Source: Acidobacteriota bacterium
GTDB taxonomy: Bacteria > Acidobacteriota > Terriglobia > Versatilivoradales > Versatilivoraceae
Assembly (NCBI GenBank): GCA_028875575.1
Contig: JAPPDF010000043.1
Location: 1 to 57,322, forward strand
DNA: 57,322 nucleotides
Direction: 5' to 3'
Below are positions 8,448-55,841 of this stretch, one piece after another. Every line of letters begins with the position of its first letter. Position 1 is the first letter of the stretch. The translations under genes and the position numbers were made by a program. The notes below the pieces were generated by a model. It saw nothing but the letters and a program-made list of their open reading frames with translations, made no database searches and had not been told where the DNA came from.

Positions 8448-8641
8448 GAGCCTGTTCGGGGGTTCAACGAAACTGCTTCGGACCCTGGCAGTGCAGCCAC
8501 TGGGTCTTCCAATGCGGGCGCCGTCCCTCTACCGATGCCGGCGGAAGGCGGATTATAGCCCAACTCGGACGAAAACGGCATCTTTCGGGATGGACGGGAT
8601 GAATTTCCGGGAGATCCTGTTTATTCTGTCTGTCGAGCTTG

Positions 8642-8821
8642 ATGCAAGATTCGCAGCGGCGCAGGTCATCTTGCCGGCAAACCCGAGCTTCTGCCTGTTT
8701 CAATATCAGGTGCGACCGGATGAACAATGATGCCTAACCACAAAACGCACAAAAGGCACCATTGGTGTTTTTGTGCCTTTTGTGGCTATTCCCGGTTAAC
8801 GTCCCGCTGCCGAATTTTGCT
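8642..8821 (-). mobile_element. MITE-like element, full-length copy
   Basis: A 180-bp copy of the element family described at 13098-13277, in inverse orientation, starting ATGCAAGATTCGCAGCGG and ending GCTGCCGAATTTTGCTA. It contains the hairpin around CACAAAAGGCACC/TGTGCCTTTTGTGG and the ATATCAGGTGCGACC segment. It lies in the 718-bp gene-free gap 8448-9165 upstream of the LuxE-like gene. Confidence 0.85.
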
Positions 8822-8911
8822 AAAGGCCTTGTCTTGCCTTACCCGAAACAAACGCTGGCGCCTGGTGGCTGGAAACCAGTTCAAAGTCGGGCATGGGCAG
8901 ATTCTTGATTC

Positions 8912-10044: not shown

Positions 10045-10179
10045 AGGAATTCAGTCGAAACAACATCGGCGGACGGGTCAAGTATTGTGAGGTCAGGATT
10101 TTCGATTGTTGATTGCAGATTTGAGGCAGAATCGATCGTCCTTGCTCCCCAATCAGATATCAAGAATCATCAGAGCCTT

Positions 10180-10296
10180 TTGCAAATTTCGGCAGGGGGA
10201 CGTTTGCCGGGAATGGCCACAAAAGACACAAATCCCAATTTATGACTTTTGTGCTTTTTGTGGCTAGACATCATTTTTCACCAGGTCGCACCCGAT
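10180..10296 (+). mobile_element. MITE-like element, 3'-truncated copy
   Basis: It begins TTGCAAATTTCGGCAGGGGGA, proceeds through GGGAATGGCCACAAAAG and TTGTGCTTTTTGTGGCTAGA and breaks off right after GTCGCACCCGAT, about 117 bp into the 180-bp element. The pilin promoter begins 22 bp beyond the break. The rest of 10045-10399 has no gene. Confidence 0.8.
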
Positions 10297-10834: not shown

Positions 10835-10904
10835 CGAACAGCGGCCAGCGGCCCACGCATCAGCCTTCTACCCGCTTCTTGGACGCCGTCTCCATGGGGG
10901 AATG

Positions 10905-11272
10905 ATGGGCAGGTCTGTAAGCCGAATTCTGTTCCCTCGTAGAGGGCAACGGTCATTCCTCTAGCCCGGGAGTTGCCTCCCGGATCCAGCATTCTACCCG
11001 GATGTCAAGCGGCGCGGGTCACGCCTCCATCCCTATTTGAACTTGCTCCATGTGGGGTTTGCCAGGCATGCCCGTTGCCGGGCACCCGGTGCGCTCTTAC
11101 CGCACCATTTCACCCTTACCCCTTGCGGGGCGGTATCTTTTCTGTTGCACTTTCCGTACCCATGGAGAAACTCCATGAGCCCCCCGTATTACGGGGCACA
11201 CTGCCCTGTGGAGTTCGGACTTTCCTCCCGCCCAATGCGCTGGCATTGAACCGGCGACCGTTCGACCTGCCC
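10905..11272 (-). ncRNA. rnpB: RNase P RNA, bacterial class A
   Basis: On the minus strand the sequence contains the conserved GGAGGAAAGTCCGAACTCC, CACAGGGCAGTGTGCC, AGTGCAACAGAAA, GTAAGGGTGAAA, GGTGCGGTAAGAGCGCACC and the 3' landmark AATTCGGCTTACAGACC. The ends are set by the P1 helix: GGGCAGGTC (11272-11264) pairs exactly with GACCTGCCC (10915-10907). The length of about 368 nt and the layout match type A RNase P RNA, the catalytic subunit for tRNA 5' maturation. It converges on the pilin gene. I saw no canonical terminator below 10905. Confidence 0.96.
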
Positions 11273-11278
11273 GACGGC

Positions 11279-13039: not shown

Positions 13040-13097
13040 GACGAACCACGAATGGACACGAATGAACACCAATGAACGGATTGATGGGTTGAGCCTC
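13040..13097 (+). repeat. Repeat B, copy 2
   Basis: GACGAACCACGAATGG through ATTGATGGGTTGAGCC, lying directly against the left terminus of the full MITE at 13098. Inverted copies are at 2327-2384 and 49318-49359, in each case next to a MITE terminus. Confidence 0.75.
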
Positions 13098-13277
13098 TTG
13101 CAAAATTCGGGAGCGGGACGTTTATCGGGAATGGCCACAAAAGGCACAAAAACACCATTTGTGCCTTTTGTGCTTTTTGTGGTTAGGCAGCATTCTCACC
13201 AGGTCGCACCCGATATCGAAAAAGGCAGAACCTCGAGTTTGCCGGCAAGACGACCTGTCCCGCTACGAATTTTGCAA
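13098..13277 (+). mobile_element. MITE-like 180-bp element, full-length reference copy
   Basis: It begins TTGCAAAATTCGGGAGCGGG and ends with the reverse complement, CCCGCTACGAATTTTGCAA, giving terminal inverted repeats of about 20 bp. Inside, CACAAAAGGCACAAA is followed by an exact reverse complement TTTGTGCCTTTTGTG after about 8 nt, a 15-bp hairpin. It encodes nothing. Full copies of the same 180-bp length sit at 8642-8821, 49138-49317 and 55662-55841; truncated ones at 2251-2326 and 10180-10296. It is a non-autonomous element; the mobilising transposase is not in the window. Confidence 0.88.
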
Positions 13278-13339
13278 GAAGCTTGAATTGTCAATTGGAG
13301 GGGAAACCGATATCTAGGAGGTTCCCCACGAAGGACACG

Positions 13340-17808: not shown

Positions 17809-20800
17809 ATGGCCTCCCTCCCCCTGACGCGACGCAGCCTGGCCCACTACTGGCGCACGCACCTGGCGGTGGTGGCCGGCGTGGCCGTGGCGGTAGCGGT
17901 CCTGACCGGATCGCTGCTGGTCGGAGACTCCGTGCGCGGCAGCCTCAGGCAGCTGGCCCTGCAAAGGCTGGGCGCCGCCCACTGGGTGATTGCCTCGAGC
18001 ATTTTCTTCCGGGAGTCCCTGGCCGGGGATATGACCGCCCATCCGGACTTTTCCGGGTCCTTCGGCACCGTCTGCCCCCTTCTGGTTCAGGAGGGCCGGC
18101 TCACCCAGCCCGAGACCGGGCGCCGCGCCGCCGGCGTTTCGGTCTATGGAGTGGATGAACGATTCTGGGGATTTCAGGGCGTGGAGCCCGATCCGGACTT
18201 CGGTTCCGGCCCGCGGTCGGGCCGTCGGGTCCTGCTCAGCCCGGAGGCCGCCAGAGACCTGGGGGTCGAGCCAGGCAGCCCGGTTCTGCTGCGTCTGGAG
18301 CAACCCTCCAACGTGCCCCGCGATTCCTTGCACGGCCGCCGGGACCGGGTGGGACGAACCCTGCGCCTTTCGGTCAGCGGCATCCTCGAGCCCTCCCGCA
18401 TGGGCGAGTTTTCGCTGAGCCCCGGGCAGGGTCCGGTACGGGCCGTCTTCGTCCCCTTGCGTCGCCTGCAGCGGGATCTGGATGTCCCCAACCGAATCAA
18501 CACCCTGCTGGTCAGCCGAGCCGACCCGGGCCGGCAGCCGACCTCCGACCCGGTGCAACCGGACCAGTTGGCGGGAATCCTCCGGGACGTCTATTCACTG
18601 GAAGACACCGATCTGAAGCTGCGGGTACTGGACCGACAGCAGTGCCTGTCGGTCGAAACCGAGGGCACTCTCATCGGCGAGGGACTGGCCGACCACGTTC
18701 GCAATGCCGCAAATGCCCTGGGACTTCGCACCCGCTTCCTGTTCACCTACCTGGCCAATACCATCCGAGCCGGCGGCCGCGAGATCCCCTATTCGCTGGT
18801 GACCGGCCTCGACTTCCCATCCTTCGGCCTGCCGCCGACAAGTCCCGGCCGCGAACTGCCTCCGGTGGTGCTGAACCGATGGGCCGCGCAGGACCTGGAG
18901 GCGCGCCCCGGAGATCTGCTGGAGCTGGAATACTACCTCTGGGCCGAGCAGGGCCGGCTGCTGACCCGGTCCGCCAGGTTTCGTCTGAGCGACGTGGTCC
19001 CCATGGGAGGCTCGCTGGCAGACAGGGACCTGGCGCCTGCCTACCCCGGCATCACCGAATCCAGGACCCTGGTGGATTGGGATCCTCCCTTCCCCATGGA
19101 GTTGGGACGCATTCGTCCTCGGGACGAGGACTACTGGGAGGAATACCGCACCACTCCCAAGGCCTTCATCCCCCTGACGGTCGGACAGCAGCTGTGGCGG
19201 TCCCGCCATGGCCAATTGTCCTCGATCCGGGTCTACCCTCCCCCCGGGGCCCCGGCCGCTGGGCCGGAGGCGCTCCGGAGTCTTCGCTTACGCCTGGAAT
19301 CCGAACTCAAGCGCACCACCGATCCCGCCCAATTCGGATTCTCGTTGCGGTCGGTCGGAACTCAAGCCGAGCAGGCCTCGCGGGGAGTCACCGACTTCGG
19401 ACAGTATTTCGTCTACTTCAGCTTCTTCCTGGTGGTATCGGCCCTGCTGCTCACCAGCCTCTTTTTCAGGCTGGGGCTGGAGCAGCGTGTCCAGGAGATC
19501 GGATTGCTTCGAGCCCTGGGGTTCGACCCTGCCGGGATCCGCCGCCTGTTTCTCAAGGAAGGAGTTCTGCTGGCCGGGCTGGGCACGTTGTTGGGCCTGG
19601 CGGGGGCTCTGGGCTACACCTCCCTCATCATGCTGGGACTGCGCACCTGGTGGGTGGATGCCGTGGGCACCACCCAGTTGAGACTCCATGTCTCGGGCTT
19701 CTCCCTGTTGGCCGGCGGTTTGGGCGGGATCCTGACCGCCCTGATCTGCATCGCCTGGAGCCTGAGGAGGATGGTGTCCATCAGCCCGCGCAGTCTGCTG
19801 ACGGGCTCCTGGCTCTACCAGGAGGCCGGGCCGGTGGCTGCCTCGCCGGCTTCCGGCAAGAAGAGTGGGAAGAGCGGCGGCGTGGCGGAACGCTGGAGAT
19901 CCCGAAGCCGCCGGCGCAGCCCGGGCCGGAGCCGAACCGCCCTCCTGCTGGCCGCTGCGGCCGTGGGGTTCCTGCTGGCCAGCCTGGCCGGCGGGCTCAG
20001 CCGGGAGCTGGGCTTCTTTGCCTCCGGCAGCCTCTGCCTGCTGGCCCTGCTTGCCTGGCAGTCGGGATGGCTGCGACGGACGCGCCGTCCGATCCTGCAG
20101 TCCCAGGGCGGCTGGGGCGTATCCCGGCTGGGATTCCGAAACGCCACCATCCGTCCGGGCCGCAGCCTGCTGTGCATCGCGCTGATCGCTTCGGCCACCT
20201 TCATCATCGTCACGGTTGAAGCCTTTCGCCGCACCGACCGCTCCAGCCCTCGGGACCGCCAGTCGGGAACCGGAGGATTCGCCCTGGTGGCGGAATCCCT
20301 GCTTCCAGTCCACGACGACCCCAACTCCCCTTCCGGCCGGGAGGCGCTGAACCTGTCTTCAGACGACAAGGACGCCCTGGCCAAGGTCACCTTCAGCGCC
20401 TTTCGGCTGAGGCCGGGCGACGATGCCAGCTGTCTCAATCTCTATCGACCGTCCAGTCCCAGAATCCTGGGAGCTCCCGACTCCTTTCTCTCCCAGTCCC
20501 GCTTCCGGTTCCAGGCCACCCTGTCGGGTTCGCGCGAGCCCGAGAACCCCTGGCAGCTCCTGCACCAGGAGTTGCCGGACGGCGTCATTCCCGTCATCGC
20601 CGACGCCAACTCGATGCAGTATGTCCTCCACCGGCAACTGGGGGAAGAACTGGTCCTCAACGCCCAGGGAGAGGCGCCCCTGCGCCTTCGCCTGGTGGCA
20701 GCCCTGCAGGACAGCCTGTTCCAATCGGAGCTGATCATGTCGGAGAAGCACTTCCTCAGAGCGTTTCCGCGAATCGACGGCTTCCGTTTCTTTCTGGTGG

Positions 20801-21300
20801 ATACGCCCCCCGGAACCGGTAAGGAAATTACGGCGACGCTGGAGGACCGGCTCTCCGACTACGGATTCGACGCGGTTCCCACGGCCGTGAGGCTGGCCGC
20901 CTTTCATCGCGTGAACAACACCTATCTCTCCACCTTCCAGGCCCTGGGCGGCATGGGGCTCCTGCTGGGCACCTTCGGTCTGGGTGTGGTGCTGTTGAGA
21001 AACGTGCTGGAACGCCGCAGGGAATTCGCGCTGATGACGGCCGTCGGTTACCACTCCGGCCACCTGGCCCGACTGGTGATCTCGGAGAATTTCCTGCTGT
21101 TGGGTTGGGGCCTGCTGTTCGGGATCTTCTCGGCGGTGGTGGCCATCCTCCCGGCCTGGCGGTCCACCGGAGGACACCTCAGTCCGACGGCCCTGGCATG
21201 GCTGTTGCTGGCGGTCCTGGCCGCCGGCCTCATCTCCTCGCTGGCCGCCGTCCGGGCGGTGACACGGTCACCGGTGGCGCCGGCCCTGCGCGCGGACTGA
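17809..21300 (+). CDS. Giant FtsX-like ABC permease (two FtsX blocks)
   Basis: A 1163-residue inner-membrane permease containing two FtsX/MacB-type halves in one chain. An N-terminal membrane helix (about 20-42) is followed by a periplasmic domain of nearly 500 residues, then three helices near 530-655, a second anchor set near 710-800, a second periplasmic domain, and three closing helices near 1045-1150. This 10-helix plan matches the large duplicated FtsX permeases of the MacB type. It pairs with the ATPase immediately upstream. A Gly/Ser/Arg-rich basic segment (about 685-708) links the two halves and should be cytoplasmic. The transported or released substrate is unknown. Confidence 0.9.
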   Translation: MASLPLTRRSLAHYWRTHLAVVAGVAVAVAVLTGSLLVGDSVRGSLRQLALQRLGAAHWVIASSIFFRESLAGDMTAHPDFSGSFGTVCPLLVQEGRLTQPETGRRAAGVSVYGVDERFWGFQGVEPDPDFGSGPRSGRRVLLSPEAARDLGVEPGSPVLLRLEQPSNVPRDSLHGRRDRVGRTLRLSVSGILEPSRMGEFSLSPGQGPVRAVFVPLRRLQRDLDVPNRINTLLVSRADPGRQPTSDPVQPDQLAGILRDVYSLEDTDLKLRVLDRQQCLSVETEGTLIGEGLADHVRNAANALGLRTRFLFTYLANTIRAGGREIPYSLVTGLDFPSFGLPPTSPGRELPPVVLNRWAAQDLEARPGDLLELEYYLWAEQGRLLTRSARFRLSDVVPMGGSLADRDLAPAYPGITESRTLVDWDPPFPMELGRIRPRDEDYWEEYRTTPKAFIPLTVGQQLWRSRHGQLSSIRVYPPPGAPAAGPEALRSLRLRLESELKRTTDPAQFGFSLRSVGTQAEQASRGVTDFGQYFVYFSFFLVVSALLLTSLFFRLGLEQRVQEIGLLRALGFDPAGIRRLFLKEGVLLAGLGTLLGLAGALGYTSLIMLGLRTWWVDAVGTTQLRLHVSGFSLLAGGLGGILTALICIAWSLRRMVSISPRSLLTGSWLYQEAGPVAASPASGKKSGKSGGVAERWRSRSRRRSPGRSRTALLLAAAAVGFLLASLAGGLSRELGFFASGSLCLLALLAWQSGWLRRTRRPILQSQGGWGVSRLGFRNATIRPGRSLLCIALIASATFIIVTVEAFRRTDRSSPRDRQSGTGGFALVAESLLPVHDDPNSPSGREALNLSSDDKDALAKVTFSAFRLRPGDDASCLNLYRPSSPRILGAPDSFLSQSRFRFQATLSGSREPENPWQLLHQELPDGVIPVIADANSMQYVLHRQLGEELVLNAQGEAPLRLRLVAALQDSLFQSELIMSEKHFLRAFPRIDGFRFFLVDTPPGTGKEITATLEDRLSDYGFDAVPTAVRLAAFHRVNNTYLSTFQALGGMGLLLGTFGLGVVLLRNVLERRREFALMTAVGYHSGHLARLVISENFLLLGWGLLFGIFSAVVAILPAWRSTGGHLSPTALAWLLLAVLAAGLISSLAAVRAVTRSPVAPALRAD

Positions 21301-21420
21301 TTGCCCCCCGCCGGGACAAGGGCCCGGCGCCGCTGCAAGCGCACGCCTGTGATACCATGCGGGCGGCAAACGGTCCGGCCGCGGCAGTCCGACCGACCAC
21401 GCAACGGAAAGGAACCAAGC

Positions 21421-22194
21421 ATGAGCAATCAGTCGTTGTTCGATCTCTCGGGACGGGTGGCCCTGGTGACCGGAGGCAGCAAGGGTCTGGGCAAGGCCAT
21501 GGCGCTGGGATTCGCCCGAGCCGGAGCCGACGTGGTCATCAGCAGCCGTCACCAGGACGAGCTGGACAGGGCCCTGGTCGAGATCCTGGAGGGAACCGAC
21601 AGCAAGGGCCTGGCGCTGGTGGCGGACCTGACCCGGCGGGAGGAGGCCGAGGACCTGGCCCGCCGCACCCTGGAGGAAATGGGCCGGGTGGATATCCTGG
21701 TCAACAATGCCGGTTCCAACACTCCCTCGCTCATCGACGAGATCCGGGACGAGGACTGGGACCGGATCGTGGAACTGAACCTCAGCTCCTGCATGGTGCT
21801 GACACGCGCCCTGGTCCCCCAGATGAAGGAACGCCGCTGGGGCCGGGTCATTCACATCTCCTCCATCATGGGGCTGGGAGGCAAGTCCACCCGCAACGTC
21901 TACAATGCCACCAAGCACGGATTGATCGGCCTGTCCAAGGCCAATGCGCTGGACCTGGGTCCCTACAACGTTACCGTCAACTGCATCGCACCCGGTCCCT
22001 TCTGGACCGATCTGCCGGCGTCGCTGCTCAACGAGGACCAGAAGGCCGTCTTCGCCCGTCGAACGGCTCTGGGGCGCTGGGGCGAGTCCGAAGAACTCAT
22101 CGGTCCGGCCCTGTTGCTGGCCAGCGAGGCCGGCAGCTACATCACCGGGGAAACCCTGGTGGTCGACGGCGGCGTGATGATCAATACGCTGTGA
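21421..22194 (+). CDS. Short-chain dehydrogenase/reductase (SDR)
   Basis: A 257-residue classical SDR. Cofactor motif TGGSKGLGKA near residue 15, NNAG near 93, catalytic Ser in HISSIMG and YNATKHG (Tyr-x3-Lys), with the C-terminal family wording ITGETLVVDGGVM. The start at 21421 is set by AAAGGAA eight bases upstream; the frame extends further but without a site. It follows the permease after 120 bp and precedes the Tat-signal aminotransferase. Likely an NAD(P)-dependent oxidation of a sugar or hydroxy acid (gluconate 5-dehydrogenase-like); the substrate is not readable. Confidence 0.92.
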   Translation: MSNQSLFDLSGRVALVTGGSKGLGKAMALGFARAGADVVISSRHQDELDRALVEILEGTDSKGLALVADLTRREEAEDLARRTLEEMGRVDILVNNAGSNTPSLIDEIRDEDWDRIVELNLSSCMVLTRALVPQMKERRWGRVIHISSIMGLGGKSTRNVYNATKHGLIGLSKANALDLGPYNVTVNCIAPGPFWTDLPASLLNEDQKAVFARRTALGRWGESEELIGPALLLASEAGSYITGETLVVDGGVMINTL

Positions 22195-22324
22195 CCGGAC
22201 TGCATGGCGGACGCCCTCGGGACCGGCTGACCGGGTGATCCGCCAAAGCCGTCCCGTTTGCCGGCAGCGGGCTTGCGCCGCCCCTTTTCCGGAATGATCG
22301 GCTCCATGCCGGGGTGAACCCATC

Positions 22325-23596
22325 ATGACCGATTTGTCCCGACGCTCGGTCCTGCACAGGCTGGCCCAGGGAACCGCTTTCCTCTCGGCCGGCCTCCCCT
22401 CCCTTTCCGCCCTGACTTCCAGCCTGGGCGCCGCTCCCGACCATGAAGCCTTTTGGGAGATGGTGCGGCGACAGTTCCCCTTTCGCGAAGCCAGCGTCCC
22501 CATGAACGCCGCCAACCTATGCCCGGCTCCGCGGGTGGTCGCGGAAGCGGTAGTGGAACTCACCCAGGACATTGACGTCGACTGCTCCTTCAACAATCGC
22601 CGGAAGTTCACGACCATGCTGGAACTCTCCCGCAAGCAGGTCGCCGATCAACTGGGGGTGGACAGCGACGAGGTGGCCCTGGTCCGCAACACCAGCGAGG
22701 CCAACAACATCATCAACAACGGCCTTCCGCTCAAGGAGGGAGACGAGGTCCTGCTTTGGGGCCAGAACCATCCCACCAACAACGTGGCCTGGCAGGTGCG
22801 GGCCGCCCGCTTCCACTCAAGCGTCAAACGAGTCGAGACTCCCACCGAGCCCACCCGGATCGATCAACTGGTGGAGCCCTTCCAGGCGGCTCTGGGCCCC
22901 CGAACCAAAGTCCTGGCCCTGACTCATGTTTCCAACGTCAGCGGGGTGCGGCTTCCCATCCGCGAACTCTGCGAACTGGCCCACCGCCGAAATATCCATG
23001 TTCATGTCGACGGCGCCCAGACCTGGGGCGCTTTCAACCTCAATCTGAGGGAGCTTCAATGCGACTCCTTTGCGGCCAGCAGCCACAAGTGGTTTTGCGG
23101 CCCCAAGGAAGTCGGACTGCTCTACGTCAAGAGGAGCCGCATCGAGGAGATCTGGCCCAACCTGGTCTCGCCCGGCTGGGGGAGCGACGTGGATCCGGAC
23201 GTGAAAGGCGCCAGGAAGTTCGAATCCTTCGGCCAGAGGGACGACGCTCGACTGGCCGCGATCGCCACCACCGTCGATTTCCACCGCCGCCTCGGCTTCG
23301 ATCGAGTGGAGTCCCGGATCTTCGAGCTGGCCGGGGCGCTCAAAGCAGGGTTGAAGGCCGAGGGCTGCCGACTGGTCACTCCCGAGGACCCGGAACTGAG
23401 CGGAGGGGTCTGTATCATCCAGGTGCCGCCGGAAAAGCGCGGGGAGGTCTTAAACCGACTCTACACCCGCTACGGCATCGCCGGGTCTACCGCGGGGGGC
23501 TTGCGCCTGTGCCCCCACGTCTACAACACCATGGCCCACATCGACCGGGCCATTGGCGCCGTTCGGGAGATGCGCTCGATGATGGGCCAGGCGTGA
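22325..23596 (+). CDS. Exported class V aminotransferase-like PLP enzyme (Tat)
   Basis: A 423-residue fold-type I PLP enzyme of class V (cysteine desulfurase/isopenicillin N epimerase group). It opens with LSRRSVLHRL followed by a hydrophobic run, a twin-arginine signal, so the folded holoenzyme should be exported. PLP contacts are HVDGAQTWG (Asp229) and SSHKWFCGPKE with the Schiff-base Lys255, then KEVGLLY. Related Tat-borne members are annotated as aminotransferases of unknown role in Acidobacteria and Planctomycetes. The substrate is unknown. 130 bp separate it from the SDR upstream. Confidence 0.85.
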   Translation: MTDLSRRSVLHRLAQGTAFLSAGLPSLSALTSSLGAAPDHEAFWEMVRRQFPFREASVPMNAANLCPAPRVVAEAVVELTQDIDVDCSFNNRRKFTTMLELSRKQVADQLGVDSDEVALVRNTSEANNIINNGLPLKEGDEVLLWGQNHPTNNVAWQVRAARFHSSVKRVETPTEPTRIDQLVEPFQAALGPRTKVLALTHVSNVSGVRLPIRELCELAHRRNIHVHVDGAQTWGAFNLNLRELQCDSFAASSHKWFCGPKEVGLLYVKRSRIEEIWPNLVSPGWGSDVDPDVKGARKFESFGQRDDARLAAIATTVDFHRRLGFDRVESRIFELAGALKAGLKAEGCRLVTPEDPELSGGVCIIQVPPEKRGEVLNRLYTRYGIAGSTAGGLRLCPHVYNTMAHIDRAIGAVREMRSMMGQA

Positions 23597-23787
23597 TTTT
23601 TTGCGACGGGGTGTTGAAGGGTTGAGAGGAACGGCCCGTTTGGAGGTGTTGGGAAGGAGCAGCGCGGTTCGGAGCGAAGTTGTTAATCCGTTGCTGCGGG
23701 GTATTGTTGTTTTGGAAGGGCTGTGGGTACCGGGACGGGTGCTGCCTATTCGCCGCATTCGCGGCTAGGTTGACGCAGAACCCATAC

Positions 23788-23937
23788 GACCCCGGGCTGC
23801 CGCCCGGGGCTACACGAGGGCGCTGCTTCGCAGCTCTATAAGGATGGCTTGTAGTCAGCGTTTCCTTGCCTACCCACTCCAACCGCAGCTTCGCAGCTCT
23901 CCCTAAACCCACGACACTGCCGGGGTATAGGATTTTT
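23788..23937 (+). repeat. Inverted-pair repeat G, left copy
   Basis: About 150 bp with CCCCGGGCTGCCGCCCGGGG at the left edge, two GCAGCTTCGCAGCTCT-type palindromic units, ATAAGGATGGC and ACTGCCGGGG near the right edge. It recurs in inverse orientation at 28128-28279. It occupies the 449-bp gap 23597-24045, which otherwise holds no gene. Confidence 0.85.
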
Positions 23938-24045
23938 TTGAGTGTTCCTCTGACCCTAGCCGCAGGGATCCGGTTAGGCGTGTTTGCCGGTTCCGCACCT
24001 TGCCATTGGTGTAAGCCGGGCCCAAGCCAATCGAAACCGCATATC

Positions 24046-24843
24046 ATGAAGATCCCGGCAATAGTCTTCCCAACGCTGGTTCTGCTCGTGGGACTGGGTG
24101 GTTGTGCGGATTCGCCTTCGGTCGGGCAGCCCACCTATGTCGATCTGACCCATCCTTTTGACGAGCACACCATCTTCTGGCCCACCGAAGAGGGATTCTC
24201 CCTGGAGCGGGCCTTCCACGGCATCACCCCGGGAGGCTACTTCTACTCGGCCAACCGTTTCCGCACGGCTGAACATGGCGGCACCCACCTGGACGCTCCC
24301 ATCCATTTCTTCAAGGACAGGGAGACAGTGGACGAGATCCCGCTGGAGCGGCTGATCGCTCCCGGAGTCGTCATCGACGTCCGCGCCCAGTGCCGCCAAG
24401 ACCCGGACTACCAGGTTGGCATCGACGATTTTGGAGAGTGGGAAGAGCGCTTCGGCTCCCGCCTGGAGGAAGTGATCGTCCTGCTGCAAACGGGCTTTGG
24501 CGACTACTGGCCCGATCGGGCACGCTATCTGGGAACCGAGGAGACCGGGCCGGCGGCGCTACCCAAGCTTCACTTCCCGGGCCTGCACCCCGAGGCCGCC
24601 CGATGGCTAGTGGACCACCGCCGCATCAGGGCCATCGGGCTCGATACCGCCAGCATCGACTATGGCCAATCCAAGGACTTCAAGACTCACGTCATCCTGG
24701 CGGAACACAGCATCCCCATTTTCGAGAACGTGGCCCGAATCGACGAGCTGCCTCCCAGGGGTTTCACCATCCTGGCCCTTCCCATGAAAATCAAGGGCGG
24801 CAGCGGTGGCCCCCTGCGCATCCTGGCCCGCCTCGATCCCTGA
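24046..24843 (+). CDS. Cyclase/kynurenine-formamidase-family lipoprotein
   Basis: A 265-residue metal-dependent hydrolase of the cyclase family (PF04199 type). A lipoprotein signal with lipobox LGGC (Cys about residue 20) predicts anchoring in the envelope, which is unusual since KynB-like enzymes are generally cytosolic. The metal-binding motif HGGTHLDAPIHF is intact, followed by LLQTGFGDYW and IRAIGLDTASIDYG. The reaction is likely hydrolysis of an amide or ester bond. The ATG at 24046 has no strong ribosome site. It is convergent with the methyltransferase 21 bp away. Confidence 0.88.
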   Translation: MKIPAIVFPTLVLLVGLGGCADSPSVGQPTYVDLTHPFDEHTIFWPTEEGFSLERAFHGITPGGYFYSANRFRTAEHGGTHLDAPIHFFKDRETVDEIPLERLIAPGVVIDVRAQCRQDPDYQVGIDDFGEWEERFGSRLEEVIVLLQTGFGDYWPDRARYLGTEETGPAALPKLHFPGLHPEAARWLVDHRRIRAIGLDTASIDYGQSKDFKTHVILAEHSIPIFENVARIDELPPRGFTILALPMKIKGGSGGPLRILARLDP

Positions 24844-24864
24844 CCGAGCCGCTGCACCGTCCCA

Positions 24865-25452
24865 TCAACGTTCTTTCCGGGCCACCATCAGGTAGAGCTT
24901 GGGTTCGTCCCGATAGGTGATCACCTCCAGCCCCAGCGGCTGGAGCAGCGACTGGAACTGGGTGCGCTGGGGGAACGACTCAATGGCCAGGGGGCTGGTG
25001 CGGCGAAGCTCTTCCACGAATGCCCTGCCCTCGGGATGGCTCACCACCATGCGGCCTCCCGGCCGTAACATGCGGCTTAGATTCCTGCAGGCTCGGGGTT
25101 TGTCGGCGATGTTCCCGAACATGGCGTTCAGAAAGGCGACATCCACCGAGTCGTCTTCCAGTGGAAGATCGGCCACGTCCGAGTGAATGGTCTGAACCAG
25201 GGGATGTTTCTGCTGCAGCCGCTGCAACATTTTCTCGGCGATGTCGCAGGCGACGATACGGGAGGGATTGAAGGACTGGATTAGGGGGACGAGAACGCCC
25301 ACACCGGTTCCGATATCCAGCACCACTTCGCCGGGGTGCAACCCGGCCGCGCCGACCACCTCCGCCAGGCGTTCGATCACAGGCGCCGGCTGGGGCACAT
25401 CGAAGTCGCCCACCCGCTCATTGAAGTATTCACGTTGAGAGGGAGCAGCCAT
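24865..25452 (-). CDS. Class I SAM-dependent methyltransferase
   Basis: A 195-residue methyltransferase. SAM-binding motif I is VLDIGTGVGVLVPLI, with ACDIAEKML as motif II region, DVADLPLEDDSVDVAF as motif III/IV and LRPGGRMVVSHPEG after it. The ATG at 25452 is used as start; the upstream extension to 25557 has no homology character. Its first about 27 codons and upstream 58 bp are duplicated at 27908-28046, where the reading is interrupted after VIEG. The substrate is unknown. Confidence 0.88.
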   Translation of the reverse strand: MAAPSQREYFNERVGDFDVPQPAPVIERLAEVVGAAGLHPGEVVLDIGTGVGVLVPLIQSFNPSRIVACDIAEKMLQRLQQKHPLVQTIHSDVADLPLEDDSVDVAFLNAMFGNIADKPRACRNLSRMLRPGGRMVVSHPEGRAFVEELRRTSPLAIESFPQRTQFQSLLQPLGLEVITYRDEPKLYLMVARKER

Positions 25453-25510
25453 GACAGGAGAGCATGTCTCACCGAGGGGGAGCAACATTAATGGGAGAAA
25501 CGTGTTCGGC
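25372..25510 (-). repeat. 139-bp direct repeat, copy A
   Basis: Covers the first 27 codons of the methyltransferase and 58 bp ahead of it. The second copy, in the same orientation and of the same length, is at 27908-28046; my hand alignment finds about 16 differences, so they are about 88% identical. The segment between them contains an integrase remnant and an amine oxidase. Confidence 0.88.
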
Positions 25511-25710
25511 TTCTTGTGTTGTCTCTGATTGCCAGTAACTCCATCCGCTCGAATCATCCCTTATAACCCACTGCCATCCCCCATACAACGTGGGAATGGT
25601 TGATGTAGACGACTCCGCCCGACTGCTAACCAAAAGCAAGCCCGCCAGCCCCCATCCCCAAATGGCCCTTTCGTCCTCTTTCCTCCGCTCCGCCCGGAAG
25701 AAACGCCGCC

Positions 25711-26004
25711 GGCAACGACCTCAATCTCTTCGTCCAACCTACCGGAACCCGGAGTTGGATTCAACGCCTCGTGATCCGTGACCGCCACCGTGAGTTCGGA
25801 CTCGGCAGCCTCGCCCTGGTCTCCCTGGCAGAGGCTCGAGAGAAGGCGCTCGCCAACCGCAAGCTCGCCGGCCAGGGCGGGGATCCACTGGCGCAGAAGC
25901 GTCGCGCGGAGTGCATCCCCACCTTCGCCGAAGCTGCCACCCGTCTGCCGGAACAGTAGCAGGCCGGATGGCGCAACCGGGAACACGCCCGCGAGTGGCT
26001 GTAG
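25711..26004 (+). pseudogene. Decayed phage-type tyrosine integrase (Arm domain)
   Basis: Read in one frame this gives GNDLNLFVQPTGTRSWIQRL, then FGLGSLALVSLAEAREKAL, ANRKLAGQGGDPLAQKRR, IPTFAEAA, a stop (TAG at 25957), then QAGWRNREHAREWL and another stop (26002). This is the Arm DNA-binding domain and start of the core-binding domain of P4-type integrases. The catalytic C-terminal part is absent. No start codon context is visible upstream. The rest of 25453-26358 has no gene I can support. Confidence 0.82.
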
Positions 26005-26358
26005 AACTGAGGCGGACCAGACTGCCTCCCTTCCTCATGGTGTTCAAGACGCCGGCGGTGGCGCCGTATTGGACCTCGATGGGCTGCTCGGCACATCCGC
26101 AGCAGAGGCCGCCCACTCCATAAAAGAGTCGGTCTCCAGCCACATTGAACGGCACTCGTCTCAGTTTGGGATATCCAGTCGAACATTCACGTAACAGGCA
26201 CGTTATTAGACCGTTAATTCACTTTAAGTGCACCTTCTATTGTTAGCCTCCAGGTTCGATTTCTTTGAGAACAACTCTGCCAGGCAATCGGATCCAACAC
26301 TGTCAAAGTTGGACAAAGTAGCAGCCTCATTTCTTCGGTGCATTGCGAGAGCCATGCC

Positions 26359-27801
26359 ATGAGCGGTTCTGAGATTAATGTGAGTCACAACCGATCTCGG
26401 TTTCCGAACGGATCAGAGATCGTAGTGGTGGGCGCGGGTGCGGCCGGTCTCGCCGCAGCCTGGACACTCGCTGGCCGCCGCAAGGATAGCAAATGCCGCG
26501 TTAGAGTGCTGGAGGCCTCGGACAAGATCGGCGGGCGCATGTTCTGCGAGAAGGTCGACGGCTTTCACGTGTATAGCGGTGCCAGCGTCATCCATGAATC
26601 CTTCGCAACAACAAGAGAATTGGCGCGCGAACTGGATGTGGAACTGCGGCAAAGTCCGAAAAAGAAAGGTGGCCAAAGCTACGTTGGCGACCGATTCTGG
26701 GGCCTGTACATCGGTGGTTCGCTGAAGCAGACCCTGCAGACCCTGCAGACCCTGTTCTTTTCGCCGCAACACACGCTGTCTGGAAATCTGGAATTCATGC
26801 GCCTGTTCGCGATGCTCAGGAAACGCGCCAAGGATCTCGATTTCGAAGACCATACCCGCATGTTGGACCTGGACACAGGGGAAAGCTTCGCTGAATTCGC
26901 TCGCGCCAACTCGCTTACCCGCTACTTGAAACAGGCGGGGGAGTTGGACCTCAACTGCTTCACCGCAGGCAGTTCCGAGCAAGTGGGGGCCGCATATGGA
27001 ATGGCGTTACTGTGGCTGTGGACCATCAATCCAGCGACGCGCAACTATTTGCCCAAACAGGGAATCAGTGCCTTCGCCAATGCCCTTTCGGATTCCTGCG
27101 CGAGTTTCACCCAAGTTTCCACGAGAGTCGCACGGATCACAATCGAAGATGGGAGGGTAAGAGGCATCGTTACGACGAGTGGAGAAAAGATCGAGGCCGA
27201 TGCGGTCATATGCGCCACCACGGCTTCGACTGCCGCACGAATCATTCCGGAATCACTAGGCGAACTTCGCGCTGTCCTTGAGCAGGTTAGCTACAGCTCA
27301 TGCTGCAATGTAGCGTTCGGGCTGAACGCGAACATTCTGGCCGATGGATCACATGCTGCGCTGTTTCCTTCTGAATCTCCGTCCTTCCTGACCATGGTCA
27401 CCAATTTGGCAGCCATGACTCCGGACGCAGCGCCTTCAGGCAAGACGCTAGTTCACGCATTGATCATCGGCAAACATGCAAGAGCGTTCTTCGCGTTGGA
27501 CGATGGCGAAATCGTGCGTCGGGTGATCGAAGAAATGCGCCGGTTCTTTCCGGCCATGCCGGAACGCCCCCTGTTCGCGAGGGTCTACCGCTGGCCGGAA
27601 GCCTTATGTCTGTCGCCTGGCGGCATGCTTAGCGATATGCATGACATGCGTACGCGACCACACAAATACATGGGTGGCCTTTTCCTCGCCGGCGACTACA
27701 CTCGCTTGCCGTCGCTGAATGGAGCCATAAAAAGTGGCGTCGAGGCAGCCGAGGCGAGCCTATCCTATATCGCCGAGGCGGAAGCGGCGAAATTGAGGTG
27801 A
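26359..27801 (+). CDS. FAD-dependent amine oxidase / PPO-like oxidoreductase
   Basis: A 480-residue flavoenzyme of the amine oxidase/protoporphyrinogen oxidase fold. The dinucleotide-binding GAGAAGLAAAWTLAG is near residue 27, then VLEASDKIGGRM; the C-terminal FAD contact is LFLAGDYTRLPSLNGAIKSG. The reaction and substrate are unknown. GAGAG about eight bases ahead supports the ATG at 26359. Its base and codon use look different from neighbours: more A and T at third positions, e.g. AAAAAGAAAGG, and its 150-bp leader is A+T-rich. Together with the integrase remnant and flanking repeat this points to acquisition by transfer. Confidence 0.88.
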   Translation: MSGSEINVSHNRSRFPNGSEIVVVGAGAAGLAAAWTLAGRRKDSKCRVRVLEASDKIGGRMFCEKVDGFHVYSGASVIHESFATTRELARELDVELRQSPKKKGGQSYVGDRFWGLYIGGSLKQTLQTLQTLFFSPQHTLSGNLEFMRLFAMLRKRAKDLDFEDHTRMLDLDTGESFAEFARANSLTRYLKQAGELDLNCFTAGSSEQVGAAYGMALLWLWTINPATRNYLPKQGISAFANALSDSCASFTQVSTRVARITIEDGRVRGIVTTSGEKIEADAVICATTASTAARIIPESLGELRAVLEQVSYSSCCNVAFGLNANILADGSHAALFPSESPSFLTMVTNLAAMTPDAAPSGKTLVHALIIGKHARAFFALDDGEIVRRVIEEMRRFFPAMPERPLFARVYRWPEALCLSPGGMLSDMHDMRTRPHKYMGGLFLAGDYTRLPSLNGAIKSGVEAAEASLSYIAEAEAAKLR

Positions 27802-27907
27802 CCTGCCGCCTGAAATCGCAGGCACTGCGGCATAGTGCTACATCTGGAAATCAGGCAGGCTTCGAAAATCTCCGGCCCATGCAGTACCCCCAAGACCGAA
27901 GATACCC

Positions 27908-28046
27908 TTCGATCACAGGCGCCGGCTGGGGCACATCGAAGTCCCCTACCCGCTCATTGAAGTATTCACGCTGAGAAGGGACGGCCATGGCAGGAGAGCG
28001 TATGTCACCGAGAGGACGCAACACTAATGGGAGAAACCTGTTCGGC
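27908..28046 (-). repeat. 139-bp direct repeat, copy B (methyltransferase 5' fragment)
   Basis: Second copy of the 25372-25510 segment. It reads MAVPSQREYFNERVGDFDVP on the minus strand, equal to the methyltransferase N-terminus apart from one substitution, but continues into unrelated sequence. Copy B lies 81 bp from the inverted repeat at 28128. In the 595-bp gap 27802-28396 no gene is supported; 27804-27832 holds a small hairpin (TGCCGC/GCGGCA) after the amine oxidase. Confidence 0.85.
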
Positions 28047-28127
28047 GTTTTTGCGGAGCGCGACGCCCTCCACCGAGGTAACGGCTAAGCTCGAATTCCG
28101 GGCTGGTGCCCGGGGAAAATCCATTAG

Positions 28128-28279
28128 AAAATCCTGTCCCCCGGCAGTGTTGTGGGTTAGGGGAGAGCTGCGAAGCTGCGGTTGGAGTGGATAGGCAAGG
28201 GAACGCTTACTACAGGCCATCCTTATAGAGCTGCGAAGCTGCGGCTTAGGGTAGCCCCGGGTGGCAGCCCGGGGTTGTG
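28128..28279 (-). repeat. Inverted-pair repeat G, right copy
   Basis: Reverse-complement partner of 23788-23937: on the minus strand CCCCGGGCTGCCACCCGGGG, then GCAGCTTCGCAGCTCT, ATAAGGATGGCCTGTAGTA and CACTGCCGGGGG. The two copies bracket the cyclase, methyltransferase, integrase remnant and amine oxidase. Confidence 0.85.
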
Positions 28280-28396
28280 GGAATTCAGCACCCGCGCAGC
28301 CGCGTATGCGGCGAATCAGTAGCATCCGTCGGAAACGCACCGCCTCTCCAAGAGGGCGCCAAACGACATGGGAGACCCGTTCACGCCAACCCGCCC

Positions 28397-29242
28397 TCAC
28401 TGCGCGGGCGGCAGCTCCACCACCTGCTCCTTGCCGTCCCGGCTCACCCGCAAGCGGACGGTCTGCCCCTCCATACCGGCCAGCATGGATTGGAATATGC
28501 CGACGCCGGTGACGGGGCTCGAATCGACGGCCAGGATGACGTCCCCCCGCTTCAGACCGGCATTCTCATTCCCGCTGACGTCGGAGACCAGAACCCCATC
28601 CGTGCTGGACAGGCCAAGGGATGCGGCCAATCCCCGGCTGATCTCCTGCACGGTGATTCCCCGAACGCTCTTGACCAAGGGCTCGCTCCGACCTTCGGAC
28701 TCGCTCCGGTCTTCCAGATCCATGGCGGTGTTCCCCTCCATCAGCGACCGGGCCACCAGGATGGGTTTGCGAAAGCGAAGGGCCAGGGCAATGGCGTCGC
28801 TGGGCCGGCTGTCCACTTCGAAATCCTTTCCGGACGAGGTCAGGAAGATGCGGGCGTAGTAGGTTCCCTCCTTGAGCTCGCTGACCAGCACTTTCTCGAA
28901 GACCACCCCGGCTCCCTGCAGGATCGACTTCAGCAGGTCATGGGTCAGAGGACGGGGCGCAGCCGCACCCTCGAGCTCCATGGCGATGGCCCGTGCCTCG
29001 AAGGGACCGATCCAAATGGGAATCGCCCGGGAATCTCCCTTGTCCCGCAGGATGACCACCGGCATGTCGGTAGTGCGGTCGAAGCCCACCCTCATGACTT
29101 CCACGGCCACCGGTCCCTGGTCAGCCTCTTCGGCCTGGCAGCCCATGATGGTCTGGCTCAAAAGCACCAGCAGGAGCAAGATCCGCCACAACGCCCGTCT
29201 CCCCGTCCACCCTCGGTGCCTGCCGTTGACAATCCCGTTCAT
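28397..29242 (-). CDS. BFN-domain (DUF151) plus PDZ lipoprotein
   Basis: A 281-residue envelope protein. The N-terminus has a hydrophobic run ending LSQTIMGC, a plausible lipobox. Residues about 45-175 are a bifunctional nuclease (BFN, DUF151) domain: VILRDKGDSRAIPIWIGPFEA, ELEGAAAPRPLTHDLL and DFEVDSRPSDAIALALR. Residues about 195-275 form a PDZ domain (ITVQEISRGLAASLG, VLVSDV, AGLKRGDVILAVDSSPV). BFN domains are normally cytosolic, so an exported BFN-PDZ is noteworthy; the family is mainly of unknown function. The ATG at 29242 has GGGG upstream and is chosen over a TTG 24 bases earlier. Confidence 0.85.
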   Translation of the reverse strand: MNGIVNGRHRGWTGRRALWRILLLLVLLSQTIMGCQAEEADQGPVAVEVMRVGFDRTTDMPVVILRDKGDSRAIPIWIGPFEARAIAMELEGAAAPRPLTHDLLKSILQGAGVVFEKVLVSELKEGTYYARIFLTSSGKDFEVDSRPSDAIALALRFRKPILVARSLMEGNTAMDLEDRSESEGRSEPLVKSVRGITVQEISRGLAASLGLSSTDGVLVSDVSGNENAGLKRGDVILAVDSSPVTGVGIFQSMLAGMEGQTVRLRVSRDGKEQVVELPPAQ

Positions 29243-29311
29243 GTTCAACCCCAGTCTGGTTGGCAATTCCCACCGCAGCGACGCAAAAGGATCCGGCTGG
29301 GCCGGTCTTGG

Positions 29312-49006: not shown

Positions 49007-49137
49007 CGACGTTGCCTTTCCTTGATATCCATTTCTTGTTGGTGTCGTTCTTCGTGCCCCTTCAGGTTCCCCTTCTCCAATCTTTTCCAACCGCTTGGAA
49101 TCCCTTCGCAGATTAATCTGTTACTCCCTTGAGCCCG

Positions 49138-49317
49138 TTGCAAATTCGGCAGCGGGACGTTTGCCTGGAATGACCACAAAAGGCACAAAAACACAAATTG
49201 TGCCTTTTGTGCTTATTGTGGTTAGACAGCATTTTTCGCCAGGTCGCACCCGATTTTGAAAAGGCAGAACCTCAGGTTTGCCGGCAAAACCACGCTGCCC
49301 CGCTACGAATTTTGCAA
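49138..49317 (+). mobile_element. MITE-like element, full-length copy
   Basis: 180 bp, beginning TTGCAAATTCGGCAGCGGG and ending CCCGCTACGAATTTTGCAA. Inside are CACAAAAGGCACAAAAAC and TTGTGCCTTTTGTGC. It is upstream of the HpcH aldolase and 43 bp beyond the end of the phytanoyl-CoA dioxygenase gene. Repeat B (49318-49359) adjoins its right terminus. Confidence 0.88.
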
Positions 49318-49359
49318 AAAGCTCAATTCATCAATCCGTTTATTGGTGTTCATTCGTGG
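49318..49359 (-). repeat. Repeat B, copy 3 (partial)
   Basis: CTCAATTCATCAATCCG then TTATTGGTGTTCATTCGTGG, an inverted, shortened version of 13040-13097 that touches the MITE's right terminus, as at 2327. Confidence 0.65.
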
Positions 49360-55615: not shown

Positions 55616-55661
55616 CCGCTGGGGGCCGTCAATCCACCAAACGGAATGAAATACGAGCCTC

Positions 55662-55841
55662 TTGCAATATTCGCCAGCGGAACGTTTGCCCGGAATGGCC
55701 ACAAAAGGCACAAAAACACAATTTGTGCCTTTTGTGCTTTTTGTGGTTAGACAGCCTTTTTCACCAGGACGCACCCGATATTGACAAACGCAGAACCTCA
55801 GGACTGCCGGCAAGATGACCTGTCCCGCTACAAATTATGCC
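55662..55841 (+). mobile_element. MITE-like element, full-length copy
   Basis: 180 bp, starting TTGCAATATTCGCCAGCGG and ending CCCGCTACAAATTATGCC, with CACAAAAGGCACAAAAAC and TTTGTGCCTTTTGTGC inside. It fills the 275-bp gap between the Kelch and M20 genes. Confidence 0.88.

Follow-up and report, generated by a model that had tools for sequence, protein, structure and literature searches.

Why the 5' end of a methyltransferase gene should be present twice, in the same orientation, on either side of an integrase remnant and an oxidase gene is the question raised by this locus. It lies in a stretch of 57,322 nucleotides (the window), which is contig 43 of a 4.49-Mb genome in 101 contigs (G000). 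The genus belongs to the Acidobacteriota, Terriglobia, Ca. Versatilivoradales, and the six congeners open to search (G001–G006) are Ca. Versatilivorator; the assemblies G002, G003 and G006 are more fragmented than G001, G004 and G005. The original prediction proposed a site-specific or repeat-mediated insertion into the methyltransferase leader, with fragments that were not recent or came from different alleles. The features of the locus are collected in Table 1.

Table 1. Features of the insertion locus in window coordinates, with strand and supporting evidence.
Feature	Coordinates	Strand	Evidence
Intact gene for a class I SAM-dependent methyltransferase (195 aa), with repeat copy 1 at its 5' end	24865–25452	-	PF08241, E=1.3e-19
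Direct repeat copy 1: leader and codons 1–27 of the intact methyltransferase	25372–25515	+	Repeat comparison
Tract nearly identical in both carrier species (30/2803 differences), flanks 10–12% divergent	25382–28184		Comparison of G000 with G005
P4-type tyrosine integrase relic with its upstream region; outer ~73 bp and catalytic part absent	25515–26015	+	PF13356, E=5.3e-13; left-end model
Non-coding segment; 70–76% identical copies elsewhere in the genus, two beside AbrB/MazF-like genes	26008–26280		Sequence comparison
Oxidase cassette; CDS 26359–27801, 480 aa, flavin amine-oxidoreductase superfamily	26340–27828	+	PF01593, E=3.7e-46
Joint between oxidase cassette and repeat copy 2	27829–27907		Direct inspection of the sequence; no match found
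Direct repeat copy 2: leader and codons 1–27 of the displaced methyltransferase 5' end	27908–28051	+	Repeat comparison; 144/144 identical between G000 and G005
Dispersed intergenic repeat with Acido-Lenti-1-like unit (28229–28274); right block edge (28184) inside	28110–28350	-	Rfam RF01687, 35.4 bits
Native upstream neighbour of the methyltransferase: gene for a protein with bifunctional-nuclease and PDZ domains	28397–29266	-	PF02577, E=2.5e-37, and PDZ domains; adjoins the methyltransferase in congeners

The direct repeat and the empty site

The repeat spans 144 nt at a spacing of 2536 and its copies are 88% identical (E = 9e-46 in a search of the G000 assembly, in which a third copy was absent). 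Over the first 139 bp exactly 16 differences were counted, in agreement with the predicted number of about 16, and the predicted coordinates and orientation were correct. The repeated sequence comprises codons 1–27 and about 60 bp of leader, with the start codon at 25452 on the minus strand; outside the repeat the sequences at the two loci show no relationship (7/40 and 6/40 positions agree). The coding part of copy 2 continues as a 45-aa frame on the minus strand. The methyltransferase is kept in the congeners with a conserved start at 25452; the listed open frame begins at 25557, and the extra part extends into the integrase relic. The protein met no NCBIfam cut-off. A viral contig with a 20-mer in common with the repeat was dismissed as a chance match of only 20–21 bp.

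In four congeners (G001, G003, G004 and G006) the methyltransferase directly adjoins the bifunctional-nuclease/PDZ gene. In the alignments to these empty sites homology ends at about 25459–25479 and restarts at 28390–28396, with 4 to ~125 bp between. The whole insertion, with the same joints, is present in one congener, G005 (assembly Candidatus Versatilivorator vitaminiformans m_rhlh7), whose contig stops at 29069 in window coordinates; a search of G002 for the methyltransferase gave no match. Since the arrangement is uninterrupted in four congeners, the state in G000 and G005 is an insertion, and so ~2.9 kb were gained in the G000/G005 lineage or exchanged between G000 and G005. The comparison with related genomes, which the original prediction had proposed as a check, thus upholds an insertion into the methyltransferase leader; the identical order in a relative, named there as evidence against it, occurs in one congener and the other four lack the insertion.

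The flavin oxidase

PF01593 matches the oxidase over its full length (158.7 bits, residues 30–467), and the FAD-binding GxGxxG motif is present as GAGAAG at residue 25. The best solved relative is the protoporphyrinogen oxidase 2ivd (E=1.7e-15), and the nearest characterised kinds are protoporphyrinogen oxidase, hydroxysqualene dehydroxylase and desaturases, none at cut-off. The predicted 'amine oxidase' was right as to the superfamily profile, but with no NCBIfam equivalog cut-off reached that name exceeds the evidence; judged by its profile matches, the protein is a putative flavin oxidase of the PF01593 superfamily.

The gene is of foreign origin and was acquired horizontally. Its G+C content (57.2%), GC3 (65.7%) and relative codon adaptiveness (0.45) all lie below the values of nine neighbouring genes (62–67%, 74–89% and 0.58–0.81, respectively), which agrees with the less G+C-rich codon use remarked on in the prediction. 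Among 200 genomes of the class only G000 and G005 carry it, and relatives that are 66–80% identical occur in Pseudomonadales and other Gammaproteobacteria, Nitrospira, Nitrospinae and Alphaproteobacteria MAGs. Four relatives (L151–L154) are located near genes for an NHLP leader peptide, an NHLM exporter or a SagD-type YcaO protein: L154 has a Rieske oxygenase, an NHLP precursor and a SagD-type YcaO, and L151–L153 have NHLM exporters. With NHLP-type neighbours in several phyla, the family is a candidate RiPP tailoring enzyme. The original setting of the oxidase was probably an NHLP-type RiPP gene cluster in another, presumably sponge- or reef-associated, bacterium.

The window oxidase stands alone, with no RiPP genes beside it. 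A second copy in G005 (90% DNA identity over 26340–27828) likewise has no RiPP-type genes beside it. The two G005 copies differ by a dN of 0.056 and a dS of 0.27; the ratio of ~0.2 indicates that the protein has been under selection. Between G000 and G005 the values are 0.009 and 0.020, based on 17 changes, which are too few to judge present selection. Because the reading frame is intact and the protein is selected in the family, the oxidase may still be in use.

The integrase relic

A domain search confirmed the predicted decayed Arm domain of a P4-type integrase between the repeats (49.3 bits against a cut-off of 27, at ~25705–25908). The reading frame of the relic terminates at 25957, and similarity to integrases goes no further than 26015, short of the catalytic domain. 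Full-length members of the family have the Arm, central and catalytic domains (Arm-DNA-bind_3, Phage_int_M and Phage_integrase); the core-binding and catalytic domains are absent from the window copy. The nearest plasmid and phage integrases are ~40–46% identical to the family. Matches to the Arm query number 11 in G000, the relic being one of them, 12–14 in each of G001, G004 and G005, and 1–6 in each of the more fragmented G002, G003 and G006.

The left end of the element was described by a model of 166 columns, with leave-one-out tests, on 23 other copies. All 23 match the model from column 1–7, whereas the relic enters only at column 74, which corresponds to base 25515, the last base of repeat copy 1. 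The relic is without the outermost ~73 bp, and thus the end expected to carry the recombination site is missing here. The other integrase copies lie at different loci, the upstream kilobase being common only to L093 and L096, and at those tested no long direct repeats adjoin the element. For the closest relative of the relic, on contig 66 of G000, an empty site was found in five congeners, and no long repeat was visible in the empty-site comparison. With the outer end missing at the repeat edge and no such repeat at the other copies, the repeat is not the normal attachment site of this integrase; the integrase therefore does not explain the repeat.

Several candidate targets and element ends were not adopted. 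There is no tRNA near the window insertion, and near other integrase copies there are only two, both distant. The shared 128-bp right end of the contig 66 insertion is in the opposite orientation in G002 and was dropped as an element end. The segment 26008–26280 is a doubtful candidate for the right end of the integrase element, as its copies adjoin AbrB/MazF-like genes and do not regularly mark the ends of elements.

The integrase islands of the genus have features of their own. In L090, L092, L093, L097 and L121 a structured palindrome of ~111 bp lies just downstream of the integrase, and it recurs inverted at the far end of the island (e.g. L093:8401–8512 and 18726–18836). Its sequence is GTGGAGGGAGCGACC...GGTCGCTCCCTCCAC plus inner stems, and among 17 copies 12 predicted pairs have changes on both sides with pairing kept. 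Four loci searched gave no Rfam match at cut-off, and a pattern search found the palindrome absent from the window; it may represent a structured RNA or DNA element of a kind not yet described. Pieces of the integrase 3' end occur again 0.6–2.3 kb past the full integrase in L090, L092, L093, L094, L103 and L104, and in L103 additionally at 3 kb, which gives the impression that elements piled up at one place.

Divergence between the two carriers

G000 and G005 differ by ~4% genome-wide and are 94–96% identical elsewhere in the window. Around the insertion the divergence is ~2% over 19600–25059, ~12% over 25060–25381, 1.1% within the low-divergence tract of Table 1 and 10.6% over 28185–29060. 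With 40/402 and 93/876 differences in the two flanks, a three-segment model was preferred by a margin of 92 log units. On the left the tract begins inside repeat copy 1, and on the right it ends inside the dispersed repeat; the right edge is less certain, as past copy 2 (28052–28184) there is one difference in 133 bp, which is also compatible with plain background. A tract divergence of 1.1%, against 10–12% in the immediate flanks and ~4% genome-wide, indicates that the block was exchanged recently; taken as a unit, the block contradicts the predicted 'not recent'. It was most simply passed between lineages by homologous recombination at these two repeats. As the left genes (19600–25059) are only ~2% divergent, 28052–28184 could be background and not belong to an exchanged tract.

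Further copies of the dispersed repeat at the right edge were found elsewhere. Its unit scores just under the Rfam gathering score of 37; an Acido-Lenti-1 RNA above the cut-off (43.8 bits) is present at 23790–23835 (plus strand), inside another copy of this repeat. A second dispersed intergenic repeat, ~185 bp long and present dozens of times across the genus, occurs at 2253–2335, 8635–8827, 10173–10296, 13089–13283, 49128–49324 and 55655–55835. The window also encodes a bacterial class A RNase P RNA (10902–11273, minus strand, 281.8 bits).

Origin of repeat copy 2

Six of the seven coding differences between copies 1 and 2 of G000 are at third codon positions (P = 0.007 against equal use of the three positions, a value that rests on seven sites). 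The sole amino-acid change, A3V, occurs also in G006. Copy 2 matches G003 alone at 25408 and 25411, and two or three of G001, G004 and G006 at 25435, 25447 and 25454. The divergence between the copies is as large as that of different-species alleles in the flanks of the exchange tract. The third-position pattern and the variants of other species point to copy 2 as a 5' end from another allele, as had been suggested as one possibility. On these sequence grounds, divergence as coding sequence in another lineage of the genus fits better than drift after duplication. At 25381 (27917 in copy 2), copy 1 of G000 has the copy-2 base and copy 1 of G005 and all other species have another; this is a possible trace of conversion between the repeat copies.

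Mechanism of insertion

The block is an insertion of 2.5 kb of foreign DNA, which holds a doubly truncated integrase and an intact oxidase, with an allele-like second copy of the methyltransferase 5' end, and it is young. We favour, with moderate confidence, a mosaic insertion that came to lie between the methyltransferase and the bifunctional-nuclease gene through repeat-mediated homologous insertion of an eroded island; the insertion was probably placed by recombination between the repeats and not by the integrase. The incoming molecule, probably a circle or concatemer, or else chromosomal DNA of another strain, would already have borne the methyltransferase 5' fragment, the integrase relic and the oxidase, and homologous recombination would have joined it to the 5' end of the resident methyltransferase gene. 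One crossover within the fragment would keep the resident gene whole at one end and place the cargo between it and the displaced 5' end, which is exactly the observed order. The integrase fragment would be a passenger. The finished block would later have moved from one species to the other by ordinary homologous recombination, with the methyltransferase repeat serving at one edge and the dispersed Acido-Lenti-1-type repeat at the opposite edge. No donor molecule joining the methyltransferase 5' fragment to the integrase was found.

Alternatively, one insertion in the common ancestor of G000 and G005 could have duplicated 139–144 bp of target, with copy 2 drifting afterwards and both flanking genes replaced later in one lineage, leaving the divergent tracts. 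The identical joints in both carriers, the close left neighbourhood (2%) and the lack of a donor would all suit such a history, but in a non-coding copy under drift the differences should not be concentrated at third codon positions, copy 2 is the same in both species while copy 1 differs at 4 sites, and two independent replacements would need to stop at the two insertion edges; we regard it as rather unlikely. Entry of the integrase into the methyltransferase 5' end, with the repeats as attL and attR and a substitute 5' end supplied by the island, seems improbable to us. The start of the integrase adjoins the repeat and points inward, which is the usual layout, and imperfect gene-end repeats with island-supplied 5' ends are known from dusA islands. 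Yet all 23 other copies tested have the ~73 bp that the relic lacks at the end abutting the repeat, copies of the same family occupy unrelated loci without gene-end repeats, and the repeats of dusA islands measure 21 bp, not 139 bp. A chimeric join of the methyltransferase alleles of two strains during metagenome assembly is very hard to credit: both carriers are metagenome-type assemblies and the alleles differ by species-level amounts, but the joints are identical in two separate assemblies.

Repeat-mediated insertion is thus the better of the two mechanisms in the original prediction, of which the leader insertion, the integrase Arm domain, the foreign oxidase and the different alleles are also supported; the site-specific event is not supported, and the age does not hold for the block as a whole. 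A bolder extension, which we consider quite unlikely, is that the methyltransferase 5' fragment is a carried homology arm and that elements of this genus collect 5' ends of genes and re-enter there via host recombination. If true, this would be a recombinase-free counterpart of an attachment site that leaves the target gene intact.

Comparison with known systems

The locus is a genuine, well-preserved and unusually legible insertion scar of gene transfer, essentially ordinary in kind. The empty site, the occupied sister genome and the mapped exchange tract together document how a foreign gene, accompanied by the remains of a mobile element, can become established in a leader without damage to the gene behind it, and how the block may then be handed on through ordinary recombination. 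They also correct the tempting inference that an integrase beside a repeat marks an attachment site.

Among P4-type tyrosine integrases, the intact family members of the genus carry all three Pfam domains; of these the window copy has kept the Arm alone. The oxidase resembles PF01593 oxidoreductases of the protoporphyrinogen oxidase and desaturase kind, and four of its close relatives lie beside NHLP-type RiPP genes whereas the window gene is solitary; it draws attention to a family of uncharacterised flavoenzymes associated with NHLP-type peptide clusters in several phyla. The motif in the right-edge dispersed repeat resembles Acido-Lenti-1 RNA (RF01687; PMC2864571), at 35.4 bits against the cut-off of 37.

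The dusA-specific genomic islands enter the 5' end of a protein-coding gene by means of a target-specific integrase and are flanked by 21-bp repeats (NAR 2015, PMC4482086). As in these islands, the gene has received a replacement 5' end with the original displaced, the direct repeats are imperfect and an integrase is nearby; the 144-bp, 88% identical repeat would take the place of attL and attR. Here, however, the repeat is 139–144 bp long and its edge falls at column 74 of 166, not at the natural end of the integrase element; the integrase is reduced to its Arm domain, and its family is not tied to the methyltransferase, the leader being empty in four congeners. Of the published islands that exchange a gene's 5' end, those at dusA come closest.
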